Assembly (NCBI RefSeq): GCF_011386835.1
Contig: NC_088805.1
Coordinates: 18,100,836 to 18,164,835 of the forward strand
Direction: 5' to 3'
From: Chrysemys picta bellii
Taxonomy: Eukaryota; Chordata; Testudines; Emydidae
Length of the DNA: 64,000 nucleotides
In this document: positions 10,201 to 63,471 of the stretch, one piece after another
Layout: the number at the start of each line of letters is the position of its first letter
Position numbering within the stretch: the stretch's first letter is position 1
Translations under genes and position numbers: made by a program
Notes under the pieces: model-generated
Database searches by the model: none
The model's input: only the letters and a program-made list of their open reading frames with translations
What the model was told of the DNA's origin: nothing

Positions 10201-10911
10201 TCAAAGACAACTAGAGTTCTGTACATTTAATGAGAATATCCATTGGGAGTAGAATCAAACTGCTACAGTTCAGAAGAAGCAGATAATTCTGGATAAAGTT
10301 AAATTTTACCAAAAATGCATTAAAGTGGAGTTCATGCATTTTTTATTCTAAAAGGGACCTTCTCCAAATTTTTCAAAAATATTTAAAGCCTGACAAACTC
10401 TGAGACCTGGCCTTTTTCCAATTATCTTGTGCGACTAGCCACACTTCTGGATGGTTTATTTAGGCTGTAATAAAACAAATAGCATTGACCTCCATAGAGT
10501 ACTGTCCAGAGTGGGACAAGTGCTCTTCTCAGTTACACACACACAATCCCAGTTGTTCTGTTAAATCTAAGGAACATGGCTAGTTACACTGAGTGACCCA
10601 GAGGTTTACTAATCTGGTGGTGGTGTTTGTTGTGCCTGTCATAAATTCCAGTTTGAATTTCCTAATACTAAGTCCTGTTTTGTCTTAGCACGCAGTAAGA
10701 GCAAAAATAAGAGCTGTGGCTATAGTTTTGTTAGTCACATTTACACTTCATGCCAATTTTCCATATTGCAGTTTCCCTGGTCTTGGGCAACAAACCAGTT
10801 GAAGGAAGGCACTAAAAATGGACATATTATTGCCATCATGCTCACTAAATTAGAGGTGTGTGTGAAGCTTTACAAATAGAGTACTAAATATTCTTGGGAT
10901 CTCTTCATCCA
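7291..10911. other. no gene seen; mostly unique AT-rich sequence
   Basis: No host exon recognised. A short GGCCTGATCCTTGCAGAATT motif at about 8334-8400 resembles one end of a turtle MITE. A small GGAA repeat lies near 9007-9022. Short frames at 8976 and 9546 have no recognisable similarity. Confidence 0.5.
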
Positions 10912-11996
10912 AATATAGTTAGGGTTACCATATTTCGAGCCTCCAAAAGGAGGACACTCCACCGGACACCGGCCCCACCCCAGCCCCGCCCACGCCCACG
11001 CCCCAACTCCGCCCCTTCCTCAAAGTCCCCGTCCCAACTCCGCCCCCTCCCCTGCTTCCCGCGAACATTTGATTCGCGGGAAGCCTGAAGCAGGTAAGGG
11101 GGGGAGTGGGGGGAGGAGGAGCGGCCCAGGCTGCCCCCCCCCGGCGTTTCCAGCCTGGGCCAGCCCCCGGCCGAGCACCCCCTGGCCCCGCCGGCCCCCG
11201 GACCCCCGGCCGAGCATCCCCCGGCCCGCTCAGCGGCCCCCAGCCCTGCCGGCCCCCCGGCCCGCTCAGCACCCCCCGGCCCGGCCCCCGATCCCCGGCC
11301 GAGCACCCCCTGGCCCCGCCAGCCCCCGGACCCCCGGCCAAGCATCCCCCGGCCTGCTCAGCACCCCCCAGCCCCGCCGGCCCCCCGGCCCGCTCAGCAC
11401 CCCCCGGCCCGGACCCCGGCTGAGCACCCCCTGGCCCCCCCGGCCCGCTCAGCACCCCCCAGCCCTGCCTCCGGACCCCACTTCTCCTACCTGGGCTCCA
11501 GCTGAGCTGCTCCTCCCCTCTCAGAATGTAAGAGCCAAGCTGCTGGCTTCGGGCAGCCCTCCCCTGCCTCAGGACCCAGAGCTGGCTGGGCACGTCCCTT
11601 CCCCGGCTCCAGCTGAGCTGCTCGGCTCCTCCCCCTCAGACTTACAGAGCGAGCTGCCCGAGCCAGCGTTACCGGCTTCGGGCAGCCCACCCCTCTGCCT
11701 CCGGACCTTGCACCGCGGGAGCAGCTCAGCTGGAGCCGGGTAGGAGAAGTGCCTGGCTGGGGGCTCGGGGTCCGGAGGCAGGGGGGGATTGCCCGAAGCC
11801 AGTAGCGCTGGCTCGGGCAGCTTGGCTCTGTAAATCTGAGAGGAGGAGTGGAGCAGAGCCGCAGGGGGAGAGGAAGTGCCGGCCATTTTCCCGGACATGT
11901 GTGGCTTTTCGGCAATTCCCCCCGGACGGGGGTTTGATTGCTGAAAAGCCGGACATGTCCGGGAAAAACCGGACGTATGGTAACCCTAAATATAGT
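10912..11996 (-). mobile_element. hAT-type non-autonomous element with GC-rich minisatellite core (copy 1)
   Basis: The termini at 10920 and 11988 are inverted repeats, TAGGGTTACCATA and TATGGTAACCCTA. They are flanked by an exact 8-bp duplication, AATATAGT, at 10912-10919 and 11989-11996. An 8-bp duplication and T/CAGGG ends are hAT features. The 1.07-kb interior is a GC-rich array of units such as GGCCGAGCACCCCCTGG from about 11160 to 11470. A small TGCCGAAAAGCC-type palindrome sits next to the right end. Long overlapping frames here on both strands follow from the GC-rich repeats and lack any transposase motif. A second copy, in the opposite orientation, is at 62945-63471. The strand given is arbitrary, opposite to that copy. 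Confidence 0.85.
11160..11470. repeat. GC-rich minisatellite inside hAT copy 1
   Basis: Variants of a roughly 25-60 bp unit built from CCCCCGGCCGAGCA, CCCGCTCAGCACCCCCC and CCCCGCCGGCCCC repeat several times with point changes. The region is strongly C-rich on the plus strand. It explains the long Pro/Ala/Gly-rich open frames that can be read in several phases. Confidence 0.8.
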
Positions 11997-21385: not shown

Positions 21386-21388
21386 TTA

Positions 21389-21506
21389 CACTGCTCTACA
21401 GCCAAAATGCTTCTGAAATAAATGTAGTCAAACTTTACTAATTCTGGGTCACTGAGAACGAAAATTATGCTTAAAAGTGTTGATTGGCTCTAGTTTTCAA
21501 GATATG
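21389..21506 (+). repeat. left terminal inverted repeat of the CACTG transposon
   Basis: It begins CACTGCTCTACAGCC and ends near GATTGGCTCTAGTTTTCAAG. It pairs imperfectly with 23811-23937; the best-conserved blocks are the outer 12 bp, the GCTTCTGA block and the inner GATTGGCT block. Small indels lie between them. Confidence 0.8.
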
Positions 21507-21561
21507 CTATTGGGTCAGTATATACGACCCTTGACTTGGGAATGGCGGAGGATAAGTGAGT

Positions 21562-21568
21562 TATAAAG
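21562..21568 (+). promoter_or_regulatory. possible TATA box of the transposase gene
   Basis: TATAAAG lies about 335 bp before the ATG, inside the element and just downstream of a GGGTC...GACCC palindrome (21512-21530). Position and sequence fit a core promoter, but a lone TATA in AT-rich DNA is weak evidence. Confidence 0.3.
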
Positions 21569-21680
21569 TGAAGGGATCTCAATTTAAACCAGAAATGACT
21601 AAAATACATCTTTGACTGGATCTATGAATAAATCTATGACTGGGTTTGGACAGTACTTGCTTTTTAGGCAAAACAATGAA

Positions 21681-21761
21681 TGATGCAATCTGAAGCTGGT
21701 ATTGCGTCATACATGATATGAATTGCATCATGTTATTCCTAGAAGTCATGGATGATGCAAT
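21681..21761 (+). promoter_or_regulatory. four C/EBP-ATF composite-like sites
   Basis: TGATGCAAT occurs on the plus strand at 21681-21689 and 21753-21761, and on the minus strand at 21722-21730. TGACGCAAT occurs on the minus strand at 21701-21709. TGATGCAAT is the textbook C/EBP-ATF composite (amino-acid response) element bound by ATF4/CHOP with C/EBP. Four copies in 81 bp, 138 bp before the ATG and lying between left TIR and gene, are unlikely to be chance. They could be stress-responsive promoter elements or transposase-binding subterminal repeats; sequence alone does not decide. Confidence 0.5.
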
Positions 21762-21898
21762 CATAACGAAGCTTACATCACTCTGCTGAACAAATTGCCC
21801 TCTTTCAGCTCTAGAAATCAGTCAGTGTCGTGCTCTCTTATTTGTCAGTGTTTGATTTTGCAAAGGGACACATTTCTGTTTAGCCAAAGTGAGCAGAG

Positions 21899-23581
21899 AT
21901 GCCTCGTACTTGTGTGAACAGTGCAGATAACTTCTGCTATGTTTGTGGTGAAGTGACTTTTGCATCACAAAAGCACAGTATAACCACTATGGTTAAGAAA
22001 GCCTATCACCTTTATTTTGGCTGCAAAATTGGAGATCAGAACAAGAGGTGGGCCCCACACATATGCTGCAACACTTGTGCAACAAATCTTCGCCAGTGGT
22101 TGAACAGGAAAAGGAAATCTATGCCTTTTGCAGTGCCAATGATTTGGAGAGAGCCAACAGATCATACCAGCAATTGTTACTTCTGCATGGTGCCTCCAGT
22201 TGGGAAAGGTGTGTCAAAGAAGAAAAAGTGGACTGTGCATTATCCTAACATTCCATCAGCTATACACCCAGTACCCCACGGAGAAGGACTGCCGGTTCCT
22301 GATGCACCAGAATCATTCTCACTTGAGTCAGACGAGGAAGAGGAAGAGGATGAAACTTCTGGTCCTGAACCATCAATGTCACAGGACCCACATTTTCTCC
22401 CATCCTCCTCCTCTGAACCACACCTCATAACACAAGGTGAACTGAATGACCTTGTCAGGGATTTGGAACTACCCAAGAGTAAGGCAGAGCTGTTGGGCTC
22501 CAGACTACAGCAGTGGAATCTCCTGGCTGGTGATGTTAGGGTTTCCATGTTCCGTGGCTGTCAAAAGGATCTTGTCCCATTCTTCTTCATGGAAGGTGAT
22601 CTTGTAGCCTGCAACAACATCGATGGTGTGATGGCAGCCCTCAACATCGTTCACAATCCAGATGAGTGGAGACTGTTCATTGATTCATGGAAGACGAGTC
22701 TTAAAGCTGTTTTACTGCATAATGGCAATGTTTTGCCATCAATTCCAGTTGGTCATGCAGTCCATATGAAGGAAACCTATGACAACATGAAACAACTTTT
22801 GAGGTGCATAAACTATGACCAACATCAGTGGCAGCTTTGTGGCGATTTGAAGGTTGTTGCTCTCTTGCTTGGTCTGCAGCCTGGATACACAAAGTACTGC
22901 TGTTTTCTCTGCGAATGGGATAGTCGTGCAAGAGATTCCCACTACATCAAGAAAGATTGGCCACTCCAACAGTCATTGGAGCCTGGGAGGAAAAGTGTTC
23001 AGCATGCACCGCTTGTTGAATCAAGGAAGATTTTGTTGCTACCCTTACACATCAAGCTGGGTCTGATGAAGAACTTTGTCAAGGCCATTGACAAAACACA
23101 AGCAGCTTTCAAGTACCTCCATGGAAAATTTCCAAGGTTAAGTGAAGCTAAGATAAAGGAAGGTGTCTTTGTTGGTCCTCAGATTCATGAACTTCTTCGA
23201 GATGATGCATTTGACCATGCACTGCCTGGCAAGGAAAAGACGGCATGGAAAGCCTTCCAGTTAGTGGCAATAAATTTTCTCGGAAACAACAAGGCAGACA
23301 ACTACAGGTTGTTGGTGGAAAACCTCCTCAAGGCATACAAAAGCCTTGGTTGCAACACGTCACTAAAGATATGTTTTTTGCACTCTCATCTAGATTTTTT
23401 TCCACCGAACTGCGGAGCAGTGAGTGACGAACACGGTGAGCGATTTCACCAGGACATTGCAACAATGGAGAAATGCTATCAGGGCAAATGGAGCCCATCA
23501 ATGCTTGCAGACTATTGCTGGACAGTGACAAGAGATGCTCCATTTAATGAATACAGAGACAAGCCAAGAATCGCCGAGTAG
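21899..23581 (+). CDS. DDE transposase-like zinc-finger protein, intact
   Basis: A 560-residue single-exon protein on the plus strand, probably the transposase that would cut and join the CACTG element in the nucleus. The start is the first ATG after the leader, with a purine at -3 (GCAGAGATG). N-terminus: paired Cys-x2-Cys at C13/C16 and C57/C60, then C93/C96, suggesting zinc-binding DNA-recognition modules. An acidic run (about 143-152) follows a KKKK stretch. The core has FIDSWK (D262), CGDLKV (D316), CCFLCEW (C335/C338), LPLHIKLG, and DEHGERFHQD (H512/H517) before MEKCYQGKW (E524). D-x18-C-x2-C and H-x4-H match the zinc and active-site spacing I recall for RAG1. The family is one I recognise as widespread, multicopy and usually labelled uncharacterised. 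Calling it a CMC/Transib-like transposase is inference from ends and motif spacing. No stop or frameshift is present, in contrast to every other coding remnant here. Confidence 0.8.
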   Translation: MPRTCVNSADNFCYVCGEVTFASQKHSITTMVKKAYHLYFGCKIGDQNKRWAPHICCNTCATNLRQWLNRKRKSMPFAVPMIWREPTDHTSNCYFCMVPPVGKGVSKKKKWTVHYPNIPSAIHPVPHGEGLPVPDAPESFSLESDEEEEEDETSGPEPSMSQDPHFLPSSSSEPHLITQGELNDLVRDLELPKSKAELLGSRLQQWNLLAGDVRVSMFRGCQKDLVPFFFMEGDLVACNNIDGVMAALNIVHNPDEWRLFIDSWKTSLKAVLLHNGNVLPSIPVGHAVHMKETYDNMKQLLRCINYDQHQWQLCGDLKVVALLLGLQPGYTKYCCFLCEWDSRARDSHYIKKDWPLQQSLEPGRKSVQHAPLVESRKILLLPLHIKLGLMKNFVKAIDKTQAAFKYLHGKFPRLSEAKIKEGVFVGPQIHELLRDDAFDHALPGKEKTAWKAFQLVAINFLGNNKADNYRLLVENLLKAYKSLGCNTSLKICFLHSHLDFFPPNCGAVSDEHGERFHQDIATMEKCYQGKWSPSMLADYCWTVTRDAPFNEYRDKPRIAE

Positions 23582-23810
23582 ACGCTGAATAGGACTAAAC
23601 TATGTACATAATAGTTTTTTGCCTTTTGTTTCATCATAAATTTTATTTATATAACCCTTTTGCTGATTTTTAAAGTGTTACATAAACAGGACAGGTGAAA
23701 TATTATCATGTAAAGCAACCATAAACACATGAAAAGACCTAGGTTTACAATTTATGATTAAAACTCTACTATCTACACAATATACATAGACATAAAATGT
23801 AAAAACTTAA

Positions 23811-23937
23811 ATATCTTAGAAACAGTAGCCAATCAGTTGTTTTAATTGTCATATTTGAATTCAGCACATCAAAATACATAATAAATAGCACATTTTATCT
23901 CTGAAGCAGACGACTTCTCAAAAATTGTAGACCAGTG
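23811..23937 (-). repeat. right terminal inverted repeat of the CACTG transposon
   Basis: Ends TGTAGACCAGTG. It is the inverted partner of 21389-21506 and holds an AATAAA at 23880-23885, about 300 bp after the stop codon. That AATAAA could serve as polyadenylation signal for the gene, so its transcript would end inside the TIR. Confidence 0.75.
23880..23885 (+). terminator. candidate polyadenylation signal of the transposase gene
   Basis: Canonical AATAAA within the right TIR, about 300 bp downstream of the TAG stop. No experimental cleavage site is known here. Confidence 0.35.
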
Positions 23938-24242
23938 TTATGACTAGACTAAGAATTTAATTTGCACCCTGAGATAACAAGCAGTATCATTTAATTAGAC
24001 AATCTAAACACATATGACACGTGGCAGCATAGCATATTAGATTACACAGGCATTCCTGGGCTGGACATGGTCCAGTAATAGTAGACCAAGGATTATATCT
24101 TAAATGGACACCAGATTTTTATTTGTAAGAAAAAGACAAACAGAATCTGCAATGGACTTCTGAACAACCTCCACTTTTTATTTCTTTCTGCAATTAAGGC
24201 ATGATAAAATAATCCAGGCTAAATTGCTAATTACATTTAATC

Positions 24243-24601
24243 GTCTATTACAGTGGTGGGCAACCTGCGGCCCACATGCAGATCATCAGGGTAATCTGAT
24301 TGCAGGCCACAAGGCATTTTGCTGACATTGACCATCTGCAGGCACAGCTCCCTGCAGCTCCCATTGGCTGCGGTTCGCCATTCCCGGTCAATGGGAGCTG
24401 CGGGAAGACGCGGGCCGCAAGGACGTGCTGGCCGCCACTTCCTGCAGCTCCCATTCGCCGGGAACAGTGAACCGTGGCCACTGGGAGCTGCATGGGGCCA
24501 TGCCTGCGGATGGTCAATGTCAGGAAAATGCCTTATGGCCTGCAGTCATATTACCCTGATGGGCCACACGCGGCCGCAGCTTGCCCACCACTGTTCTATA
24601 A
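24243..24601. mobile_element. complete hAT MITE, CAGTGGTGGGCAACC type
   Basis: The element 24251-24593 (343 bp) starts CAGTGGTGGGCAACCTGCGG and ends GCTTGCCCACCACTG. The flanks GTCTATTA (24243-24250) and TTCTATAA (24594-24601) agree at 6 of 8 positions, as an aged hAT duplication would. The interior is a near-complete palindrome. It contains two copies of the CAGCTCCCATTGGC module (24355-24400 and 24445-24490). Confidence 0.85.
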
Positions 24602-24793
24602 CCTCATATATAAAAGTTTAAAAAATACCTTCTGTATTTGGTTGTTTGTGACCAGAAGTAGCTTTTTGACTATATAATCAAAAGATATGTACAAAATTAG
24701 TTATTCCAATATAATCCATTAACCAGTCAACTCAGTCCTTGCAATTTAATGACCTGACTTTTTTTTTTAATTCTGCCTGCACAGTATGTGCAG

Positions 24794-52075: not shown

Positions 52076-53250
52076 TAGGGGGTGTGGGACCTGGGGTAAA
52101 TCAGCCTGTATGGGTCCCCCTTAACATTTTTTATACAGATGAAATCTGGTTACAGTGAACTTCAAGGGCAGCTGCTGGCTGCAGGTTAAATATTGATAGC
52201 GCCCAGCTGTATAATTATAATGTTGTTATATTATATTGTAGTTCTTTTTTATAATTATAATGAAGTTCATATAATTAAAAAAAAAAACCCTCATCAATCA
52301 CGATCAGTGTCGCACCACTTACTTTCTGAAATCCACCTTCCTGGACTTCCTTGCAGCAAATTCACTTCCCAGGTGCATATGGTCTCGCTACCCTCAGTGG
52401 ATTTTTTTAAAAATGTAATTATGCATTCACAACACTGAGAGCCCATGTCTCCGGAACTGGGTGGTTCTTGGAGGGCCTATATGTGCCCTGGTGGAGGGGG
52501 ACTCCAGGAGCCTCCATGATGGAGGAGGGACTCTAATATCTGTTTTCTCTGGGGGCTGGGAGAGGGATGGGAGGCGGAAAAGCAGATGGATGGGGACCCC
52601 AGTGCTGGTGGGTGGCGGAGAGAGCACAGTTGTGGGGACCCAGGTCCTGGTACTACGGTAAGGGGGACCCCAAGGCTGGGGAGCTGAAAGGCAAGGAGGA
52701 CCCTGAGGCAGGGGGTGATGAGGGCTGGCCATGGCCTGGAGTGGCCTTGGAGGACCCCATGCAGTGCTGGGAGAGGGGAGAAAGGGCAGTGCAAGGGGGA
52801 GGTGTGGGGCCCTGGGGGGACACCAGTGCTGGGCGAGGGACAATGGAGACTACTGGCTGGCACTCACCTGTGCTAGGGACGAGGGGGGCCCCCTGTGCTG
52901 GTGGAGGGTCCCGCCGGAAAAGGGAAGGGTCCTTCCAAGGTGGAAGGGCAGGGGCAGGGGCAGCCTGCCTTGGCACTAGTGCAGGTGGGCACTCGGACCC
53001 TGTGGTGGCAGGCGACGTCGGGAGCTGGCGGAGCGGAGCAGGCTGGGGCTGGGTCGCTCGCTGCTGCTGCCACAGAGACTGAGCCCAAGCCCGGGGGGCT
53101 GTGGGCAAGAAATAAACGCCCCAGCTGCTGAGTGCCAGCGCCAGGCCCTCAGCTAGCCTCCCGGGCCACCCTGCTTCCCTACCCTGGGCATCCCCCTGAA
53201 GCACAGGGTTGACCCAGTCCGTACTATGGATGGGATGGCTCTGTCTGTAC
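52076..53250. other. foreign block inserted in DIRS gag, G-rich
   Basis: The gag-like reading frame stops matching at about 53250 (after ATRRRQYRQ) and resumes at about 52075 (GREYRYQPYQ). The 1.17 kb between them has AT-rich material at 52130-52440 and a G-rich, minisatellite-like part at 52455-53060 (GGGGACCC, AGTGCTGG, GGTGGAGG). The long frames on both strands here reflect composition. I found no target duplication and do not recognise the family. Confidence 0.5.
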
Positions 53251-54152
53251 TGTCTTCTCCTCGTGGCAGGTGTATGGATACCAAGAGATTGGAGTGTGGC
53301 GCACAAGTCCTTCATAGTGTGAAGAATCTCATTCATCTTAGCTGCGAACAGCTTCTCTCCATCGAATGGGAGGTCCTCCACTGTGTTCTGTATTTCACGG
53401 GGGAATGTGGGAAAATGTGAACCACAACGCCCTTTGCATGACTACAGCTGTGGCAGTGGATCTGGCTGCAGTGTCGGCAGCATCCTGAATTTGCAGCCCC
53501 GTGTGGGCGATGGTTTGGCCTTCGAAGACTAATAATTTGAACTGTTGTCTCTTTGCTTCCGGAATATCATCAGTAAAATTGTTAAACTTAGCATAGTTCT
53601 TGTGATCATACTTGTGGTCATTTGGCCAGTAGGGCCGAATAATTGGACACTCTGAATTGGAGTGCAGAGGAAGCATAGACTTTTCGTCCAAAGAGGTCTA
53701 GCCTTGTCCGAAGGGGTGGATCTGAAATGTTGTTGCTTGCCCCTTTGGTTGGCCATCTCTACCACAAGCAAATTAGGAGCCAGATGTGTAAATAAGAATT
53801 CAGATCTCTTAGATGGGACATAATATTTTCAATCAGCTTTTTCACAGGTAGGTGGAATTGTGGCTGGTGTTTGCCAAACTGTTTTTGCTGGGTCCATGAT
53901 AGCATTGCCCATCAATGCTGCTATCTTAGAGGAGGAGGAAGTTTGTAAGATGTCGGTTAACTTATGCTGAGTTTCTGACACCTCCTCAAGGGTGATCTTA
54001 AGTTCATCGGCCACTCTTTTAAACAGGTCCTGAAACTGGGAAAAATCATCCGCTGTTGTTGGTGGTGGAGGCATTATAGCCTCATCAGGAGAAGAGGAGG
54101 AATTCGTGGGTGGCGAGGTGTCTGGGGCAGCATCTACTGCCTGTTCTGCCAC
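53250..54152 (-). pseudogene. DIRS gag core, LAP2alpha-C-terminus-like, broken
   Basis: Minus-strand pieces in order: a 107-residue frame (53829-54152) with TTADDFSQFQDLFKRVADEL, ETQHKLTDIL and ALMGNAIMDPAKTVWQTPAT; a block with LLVVEMANQRGKQ; a 98-residue frame (53395-53691) with YDHKNYAKFNNFTDDIP and DAADTAARSTATAVVM; and EDLPFDGEKLF with EILHTMKDL. This is the region predicted in many vertebrates as lamina-associated polypeptide 2 alpha-like. The LAP2alpha-specific exon is held to derive from a DIRS1-like gag, so this is the retroelement relative and not the host TMPO gene. At least two frameshifts and several stops interrupt it. Confidence 0.75.
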
Positions 54153-62944: not shown

Positions 62945-63471
62945 TACTCCCTTAGGTTACCATACGTCTGGATTTTCCCGGACATGTCCGGCTTTTTGGG
63001 CCTCAAATCCCCGTCCGGGGGGAAATCCCAAAAAGCCGGACATGTCCGGGAAAATAGGGAGGGCCTGGCGGTGCTCGGCCGGGGGCCGGGGCCAGGAGTG
63101 CAGAGCTGGGGTGCTCGGCCAGAGCCGGCGGTGCGGGCCAGGGCTGGCGGTGCTCGGCCGGGGGTGTTGGGCTGGGGGTCGGCGCTGGCCTGGGGGTGCT
63201 CGGCCGGGGGCCGGGAGCCAGGGCCGGTGCTGCTCAGCCAGGGGCGGGGCCGGCGGTGCTTGGCCGAGGGTGTTGGGCTGGGGGCCGGTGCTGGCCCGGG
63301 CCCGGGGGTGCTCGGCCGGGGGCCGGGAGCCGGGGCCGGTGGTGGGGCGGCGGTGCTTGGCCGGGGGTGTTGGGCCGGGAGCTGGCGTCCCAGGAAGGGG
63401 CGGAGTTGGGCTGGGGCCCCGTGGAGTGTCCTCCTTTTTTAAAATGAAAATATGGTAACCCTATACTTCCT
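62945..63471 (+). mobile_element. hAT-type element with GC-rich minisatellite core (copy 2)
   Basis: The element 62953-63463 (511 bp) starts TAGGTTACCATACG and ends TATGGTAACCCTA. The flanks TACTCCCT and TACTTCCT match at 7 of 8. The left part holds a GGACATGTCCGG/CCCCGTCCGGGG palindrome. The core, from about 63065 to 63385, repeats GGTGCTCGGCCGGGGG-type units. The right part (GGAGTGTCCTCCTTTTTT) is the reverse complement of the left part of copy 1, so the two copies are in opposite orientation. No coding capacity beyond composition-driven frames. Confidence 0.85.
63065..63385 (+). repeat. GC-rich minisatellite inside hAT copy 2
   Basis: Repeats built on GCTCGGCCGGGGGCCGGG and GTGTTGGGCTGGGGG, complementary in composition to the array in copy 1. 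Confidence 0.8.

Follow-up and report, generated by a model that had tools for sequence, protein, structure and literature searches.

The DNA analysed in this study, referred to below as the window, is a stretch of 64,000 nucleotides from the painted turtle, Chrysemys picta bellii (contig NC_088805.1, positions 18,100,836 to 18,164,835). It contains a DNA transposon of 2,549 bp (21389-23937) with a TTA duplication on both sides and a continuous frame of 560 codons inside. A sequence-only reading had described this element as apparently intact, pointing to recent arrival or continuing selection, and had placed it at 21386-23940 with the duplications, coordinates which proved exact. Our analysis indicates, with a probability of about 0.92, that this copy of an autonomous Chapaev3 transposon no longer functions and is decaying neutrally, its open frame having been kept by chance. 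The element is laid out as follows.

21386..21388, no strand: left target-site duplication TTA, preceded by A (exact 3-bp duplication in 57/63 two-ended copies)
21389..21505, + strand: left terminal inverted repeat (TIR), 117 bp, CACTG end, diverged and gapped relative to the right end
21681..21761, no strand: four TGAYGCAAT sites (+,-,-,+) with spacings of 20, 21 and 31 bp, in the 510-bp leader
21899..23581, + strand: transposase frame, 560 codons (564 in the majority of copies)
21899..22315, + strand: N-terminal zinc domain, residues 1-139, with a ZAD-like predicted fold
22418..23557, + strand: predicted RAG1/Transib-like catalytic core, residues 174-553
23552..23557, + strand: site of a 1-bp deletion, the last 8 codons shifted
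23811..23937, - strand: right TIR, 127 bp, CAGTG end
23938..23940, no strand: right target-site duplication TTA, followed by T

The insertion context is A-TTA...TTA-T, and the termini read CACTG...CAGTG. Gapped alignment of the left (117 bp) and right (127 bp) repeats gave 85 identical columns among 109 ungapped ones and a score of 60, which was matched by 0 of 1000 dinucleotide-shuffled pairs (largest 54), by 1 of 1971 random inverted pairs of the same spacing elsewhere in the window, and by 0 of 1640 systematically tiled pairs (best 59). Decisive support comes from other copies. In the host genome (2.37 Gb scanned), 78 of 8,584 first-look candidates were scored, 70 loci were fetched and 63 two-ended copies were aligned; these were chosen by protein score and are biased towards open frames. 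An exact 3-bp duplication was present in 57 of the 63 (TTA in 31, TAA in 19, others in 7), the remaining six having unequal 3-mers, and the majority sequence has 86 identical columns between its repeats; seven fetched loci lacked a recognisable end. The inverted repeats are real, though diverged and gapped, and the earlier description of matching CACTG ends, TIRs of about 120 bp and a 3-bp duplication is borne out, also when set against shuffled sequence.

Of the uninterrupted 560-aa gene claimed earlier, the frame itself (21899-23581, + strand) is present, yet the 1-bp deletion throws the final 8 codons out of the family register, and the alternative frame past this site encodes the C-terminal tail of the family. 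The core motifs in this copy are D262, D316, C335-x2-C338, L383-H384, H512-x4-H517 and E524. In a 121-row alignment D262 and D316 are invariant and C335/C338, L383-H384, H517 and E524 near-invariant; H512 is found in this copy and in the majority sequence. E524 is a conserved acid at the expected place and may be catalytic. The N-terminal domain carries conserved ligand-like residues at Cys 13, 16, 57 and 60, His 89, Cys 93, Cys 96 and His 127. A protein search gave 1,795 relatives among 8,000 candidates scored; in the best 120, listed by the search, many align over 99-100% of the frame's length, and the organisms named are turtle, lamprey, firefly, frog and leech, with electric eel added by a second search. 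The named matches are all "uncharacterized" or "hypothetical" proteins and a Pfam scan of the transposase found no family above cut-off, as expected from the earlier remark that such proteins usually go uncharacterised. Sequence searches of PDB with the protein returned chance-level matches only. The best solved-structure matches of its predicted fold, a high-confidence model, were RAG1 and Transib.

Passages of PMC4079192 describe Chapaev elements generally as having 3- to 4-bp duplications and CAC/GTG ends, and Chapaev3 as having TWA duplications inserted between A and T together with C(2)C, LH and H(4)H motifs. The turtle element displays a TWA duplication between A and T, CAC...GTG inverted termini and a DDE (Asp-Asp-Glu) core with C(2)C, LH and H(4)H. 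In addition, an N-terminal zinc domain named Chapa is described for Chapaev3 in part of Kapitonov and Koonin 2015 (PMC4411706); the turtle protein has a conserved N-terminal domain with zinc-ligand-like Cys and His residues that may or may not correspond to it. Judged by insertion context, ends, motifs and predicted fold, the element is a Chapaev3 transposon of the CMC/Transib-RAG1 group. Among the Chapaev3 families in the same passages of PMC4079192, Merrow, Garfield and Conan share the A/T-flanked TWA duplication, the CAC...GTG ends and the C(2)C, LH and H(4)H motifs with it, and Merrow and Garfield also resemble it in transposase length (about 560 aa) and element length (about 2.3-2.5 kb). 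Star-like copies are a further shared point, as is horizontal transfer (probable for the turtle family), which in those families involves lampreys and a lizard. On the other hand, the Merrow and Garfield transposases are encoded by two exons (78 + about 480 aa; Merrow 78 + 484) instead of a single frame, Merrow_PM measures 2,451 bp against a turtle majority length of 2,550 bp, at most a few hundred copies are listed there against about 4,000, and the turtle is absent from the host list in Table 1 (databases of September 2013). Compared with Transib, RAG1 and RAG-like transposases, the turtle protein shows about 10-13% identity, and the element differs in its 3-bp TWA duplication and in that no second gene was seen inside it. 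In the open-licence literature we found no description of Chapaev in turtles, though the family may already be named in Repbase; the passages of the review PMC7397244 mention Chapaev in anole only, and the word is absent from the abstract and passages of PMC11008031 and from passages of PMC4054807.

The sequence-only reading had proposed counting copies and measuring their divergence. With at most 3 mismatches allowed, the outermost 36 bp on the left side of the element had 4,108 genome matches and a 36-bp coding motif had 3,806, the reversed control giving 0 in each case; most copies therefore carry coding sequence, and amplification of miniature inverted-repeat transposable elements as the main copy source is not supported by these figures. 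The 63 copies diverge from their majority by 0.8-1.8% (median 1.33%), this copy ranking 36th. When two segmental duplicates were dropped, the non-CpG median over 61 copies was 1.01%, and 1,049 of 1,250 variants were private. The copies examined are one star-like burst. The seven loci without a recognisable end show 97.8-99.3% identity, three of them about 98.2-98.5%. The closest copies, L003, L039 and L057 (G000 C5, 1.00-1.26 Mb), have flanks 98.9-100% identical, and since these are near-identical or identical the three represent a local segmental duplication carrying the transposon. According to passages of PMC4054807, the pace of gene evolution in turtles is about a third of that in humans. 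With human or mammalian rates and this slowdown, the burst would be, very roughly, 15-25 million years old.

Relative to the majority of the 63, this copy has 20 missense, 7 synonymous and 8 non-coding changes in addition to the 1-bp deletion within the frame. CpG transitions make up 10 of its 35 substitutions, CpG positions being 82 of 2,550. Its omega, the ratio of nonsynonymous to synonymous change, is 0.99 against the non-coding spectrum, and 11 of the 18 missense changes in codons 1-552 hit family-conserved positions (at least 90% in relatives). In the 63 copies taken together, 338 of 836 missense changes fall at conserved positions, the neutral expectation being 0.35-0.37. The corresponding share is 38 of 1,264 for the differences between nine family members and protein P0001, which matches the turtle majority protein without a single difference over the 522 residues compared. 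This copy is also changed at residue 264, adjoining D262, and at 492, before H(4)H, both the same in every other aligned row that has a residue at the position. The open frame is unremarkable, because under neutrality the chance of no stop is about 0.4 with 17 private missense changes; 30 of the 63 aligned copies are likewise without nonsense codon or frameshift. Frameshift, omega, conserved residues lost and average divergence together overturn the view of an intact element under selection or newly arrived. Some observations weigh against simple neutral decay. For the 63 copies as a whole omega is 0.73, with nonsense changes at 0.455 of expectation relative to synonymous ones, so that weak constraint may have acted on the copies; and this copy keeps the candidate D, D and E as well as those zinc ligands that were checked, so that, judging from these residues, some partial activity may remain. 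Nevertheless, choosing copies by protein score discards those with stops or frameshifts, and to this we attribute the lowered omega, the nonsense deficit and the position of the frameshifts (five frameshifted copies in the set, all shifts in the last 40 bases of the frame). The proposed test of selection by dN/dS lends no support to selection here.

As to how the family reached the turtle, horizontal transfer, direct or via a third host, is very probably the best reading at the protein level. A tree built from 33 selected relatives unites this copy with P0050, a protein of Chrysemys picta bellii, and with P0001 (99/92); next to join are P0107 and a protein from lamprey (100/98), and the one from frog falls with those of leech and firefly (forks 98/95 and 98/93). 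Between the lamprey protein and the turtle majority protein 48 of 423 residues differ, 18 of the 48 at conserved positions, which is the neutral proportion; between the lamprey protein and P0001 it is 43 of 393, 16 of the 43 conserved, an estimate that leaves no progenitor difference. Two parts of the lamprey gene model, its C-terminal part and a stretch that is frameshifted, are left out of these counts, and with the left-out parts included 31 of 89 differences are at conserved positions over 485 residues. Because the conserved-position share of the differences equals the neutral proportion, the turtle and lamprey progenitors would have been nearly identical. Vertical inheritance or contamination is an unlikely alternative: a single lamprey protein was seen, its gene model is degraded and the comparison is at the protein level only, which tells against transfer, whereas the near-identity of the progenitors and the clade uniting lamprey, turtle, P0001 and P0107 apart from frog, leech and firefly speak for it. 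Moreover, the turtle family is not a contaminant of the turtle, because its roughly 4,000 matches lie on large contigs. As for vectors, six short peptide patterns found no relatives in viral_contigs and genome_contigs (viral carriers, bacterial contigs), a weak negative as the patterns came from this diverged copy, and a viral structure library gave 0 matches with E of 0.001 or better.

That the family is still mobile in the painted turtle, with this copy or its sisters jumping today, seems quite improbable. The 30 copies free of nonsense and frameshift, with motifs kept, would be in its favour. Against this, every one of the 63 copies lies at least 0.8% from the majority, copies whose flanks are unrelated differ by 1.5% or more in every pair, most non-CpG variants are private, and the present copy is frameshifted and has lost residues otherwise invariant in the aligned rows; an active autonomous transposon would be expected to show an intact transposase and near-identical unlinked copies, the first of which is lacking in this copy and the second among the 63 aligned. 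Still, copies younger than the sampled set may exist, given that 78 of 8,584 candidates were scored and 70 fetched, which tells somewhat against a family wholly at rest.

TWA duplications occur in PIF/Harbinger too, and CACTR ends in CACTA. The TWA duplication and the CACTR end would thus fit PIF/Harbinger and CACTA/EnSpm, respectively, yet membership in either of these 3-bp-duplication superfamilies is very unlikely in view of the predicted RAG1/Transib fold with C(2)C...H(4)H, the lack of any Pfam transposase match, and the A-TWA-T context, which passages of PMC4079192 describe for Chapaev3. C(2)C and H(3-4)H alone cannot exclude CACTA, because according to passages of PMC12730594 they are common to CACTA as well. 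TWA was found in 50 of the 57 copies with an exact duplication and A..T flanks in 39; the 7 duplications that are not TWA and the 18 copies without an A..T flank count against the Chapaev3 assignment. Finally, a domesticated host gene, suggested by an open frame of near full length and raised earlier for the case of a single-copy locus without TIR-flanked relatives, can be dismissed for practical purposes, as the locus keeps its duplication and TIRs and is one of some 4,000 copies in the host genome, and omega of 0.99 and conserved residues changed at or above the neutral rate are not those of a gene under purifying selection.

The N-terminal module deserves separate mention. Its predicted fold matches ZAD weakly (Foldseek E 0.23; Pita ZAD E 1.0), and there is almost no sequence signal, Pfam zf-AD appearing in 1 of 69 aligned relatives (E 0.068). 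A Pfam signal for RAG1 importin binding was seen in 2 of the 69 (E 0.23; 21899-22315); both signals agree weakly with a RAG1/ZAD-like N-terminus yet lie within chance, and no Pfam family passed the cut-off in these relatives. Unlike the ZAD of insect transcription factors, the turtle module has extra conserved His/Cys residues (89, 93, 96, 127) and is attached to a transposase. Based on the predicted fold, we tentatively raise the idea, more doubtful than not, that genuine homology connects the Chapaev3 N-terminal zinc module (the Chapa domain, which RAG1 is reported to have too) with the ZAD dimerisation domain; no Chapaev-ZAD link was found in the open-licence literature. ZAD is the dimerisation domain of the largest insect transcription factor class. 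If the homology were true, a single zinc dimerisation module, passed from transposons to host regulators or the other way, would be common to Chapaev/RAG-type transposases and ZAD zinc-finger proteins, and the N-terminus of RAG1 would be related to ZAD, tying the V(D)J recombinase to insect transcription-factor dimerisation domains.

The TGAYGCAAT sites in the leader, which presumably resemble a C/EBP-ATF composite site, have spacings close to whole helical turns, and the cluster is also present in the majority of the 63 copies; three of the window's six TGATGCAAT sites fall within 21681-21761. None of 5000 leader shuffles had more than one TGAYGCAAT site, the motif having been chosen after the fact, and some 9-mer reached at least 3 copies in 11 of 1000 shuffles. 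The idea that the cluster is a regulatory site under constraint was rejected: substitutions there (56/2,268) are not fewer than in the rest of the leader (421/29,794). One of the four sites contains a CpG.

Elsewhere in the window, where every other coding remnant had been called broken, 21 further open reading frames (ORFs) of at least 110 aa occur, and the 10 that were scanned gave no Pfam match above cut-off. The segments 10905-11743 and 62984-63458 are GC-rich, with overlapping Gly/Ala/Arg/Pro-rich ORFs and similar endings, and are probably one dispersed GC-rich repeat. The GC-rich stretch at 24250-24620 resembles a common turtle hAT-type repeat. On the - strand, a 242-codon ORF at 52653-53381 had no Pfam match; its first 35 residues may resemble a domain of vertebrate DIRS-like elements.

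Two transposase molecules pairing the ends, cutting, and joining the element to its target is the course of events for Transib and RAG1. By analogy with them, and from fold and motifs, the Chapaev3 transposase, putatively a single-exon protein combining an N-terminal zinc module with a RAG1/Transib-type RNase H core into which a C(2)C/H(4)H zinc site is inserted, would have attached to both ends, cut the element out and placed it at A-TWA-T sites by way of 3-bp staggered cuts, TWA being duplicated in the process; such cut-and-paste chemistry is what we infer. Horizontal transfer would very probably have brought the family into the turtle lineage, where a single burst raised it to about 4,000 copies, most of them coding. 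Drift would then have acted on each of them, the present one losing conserved residues and its C-terminal tail while its frame stayed open by chance. The locus is ordinary and the family moderately interesting. An apparently intact gene among repeats turns out to be a chance survivor of a large family; a high-confidence model places little-studied Chapaev3 transposases close in predicted fold to RAG1 and Transib; and the painted turtle, with about 4,000 mostly coding copies, would join the species known to host Chapaev3 elements that move horizontally.
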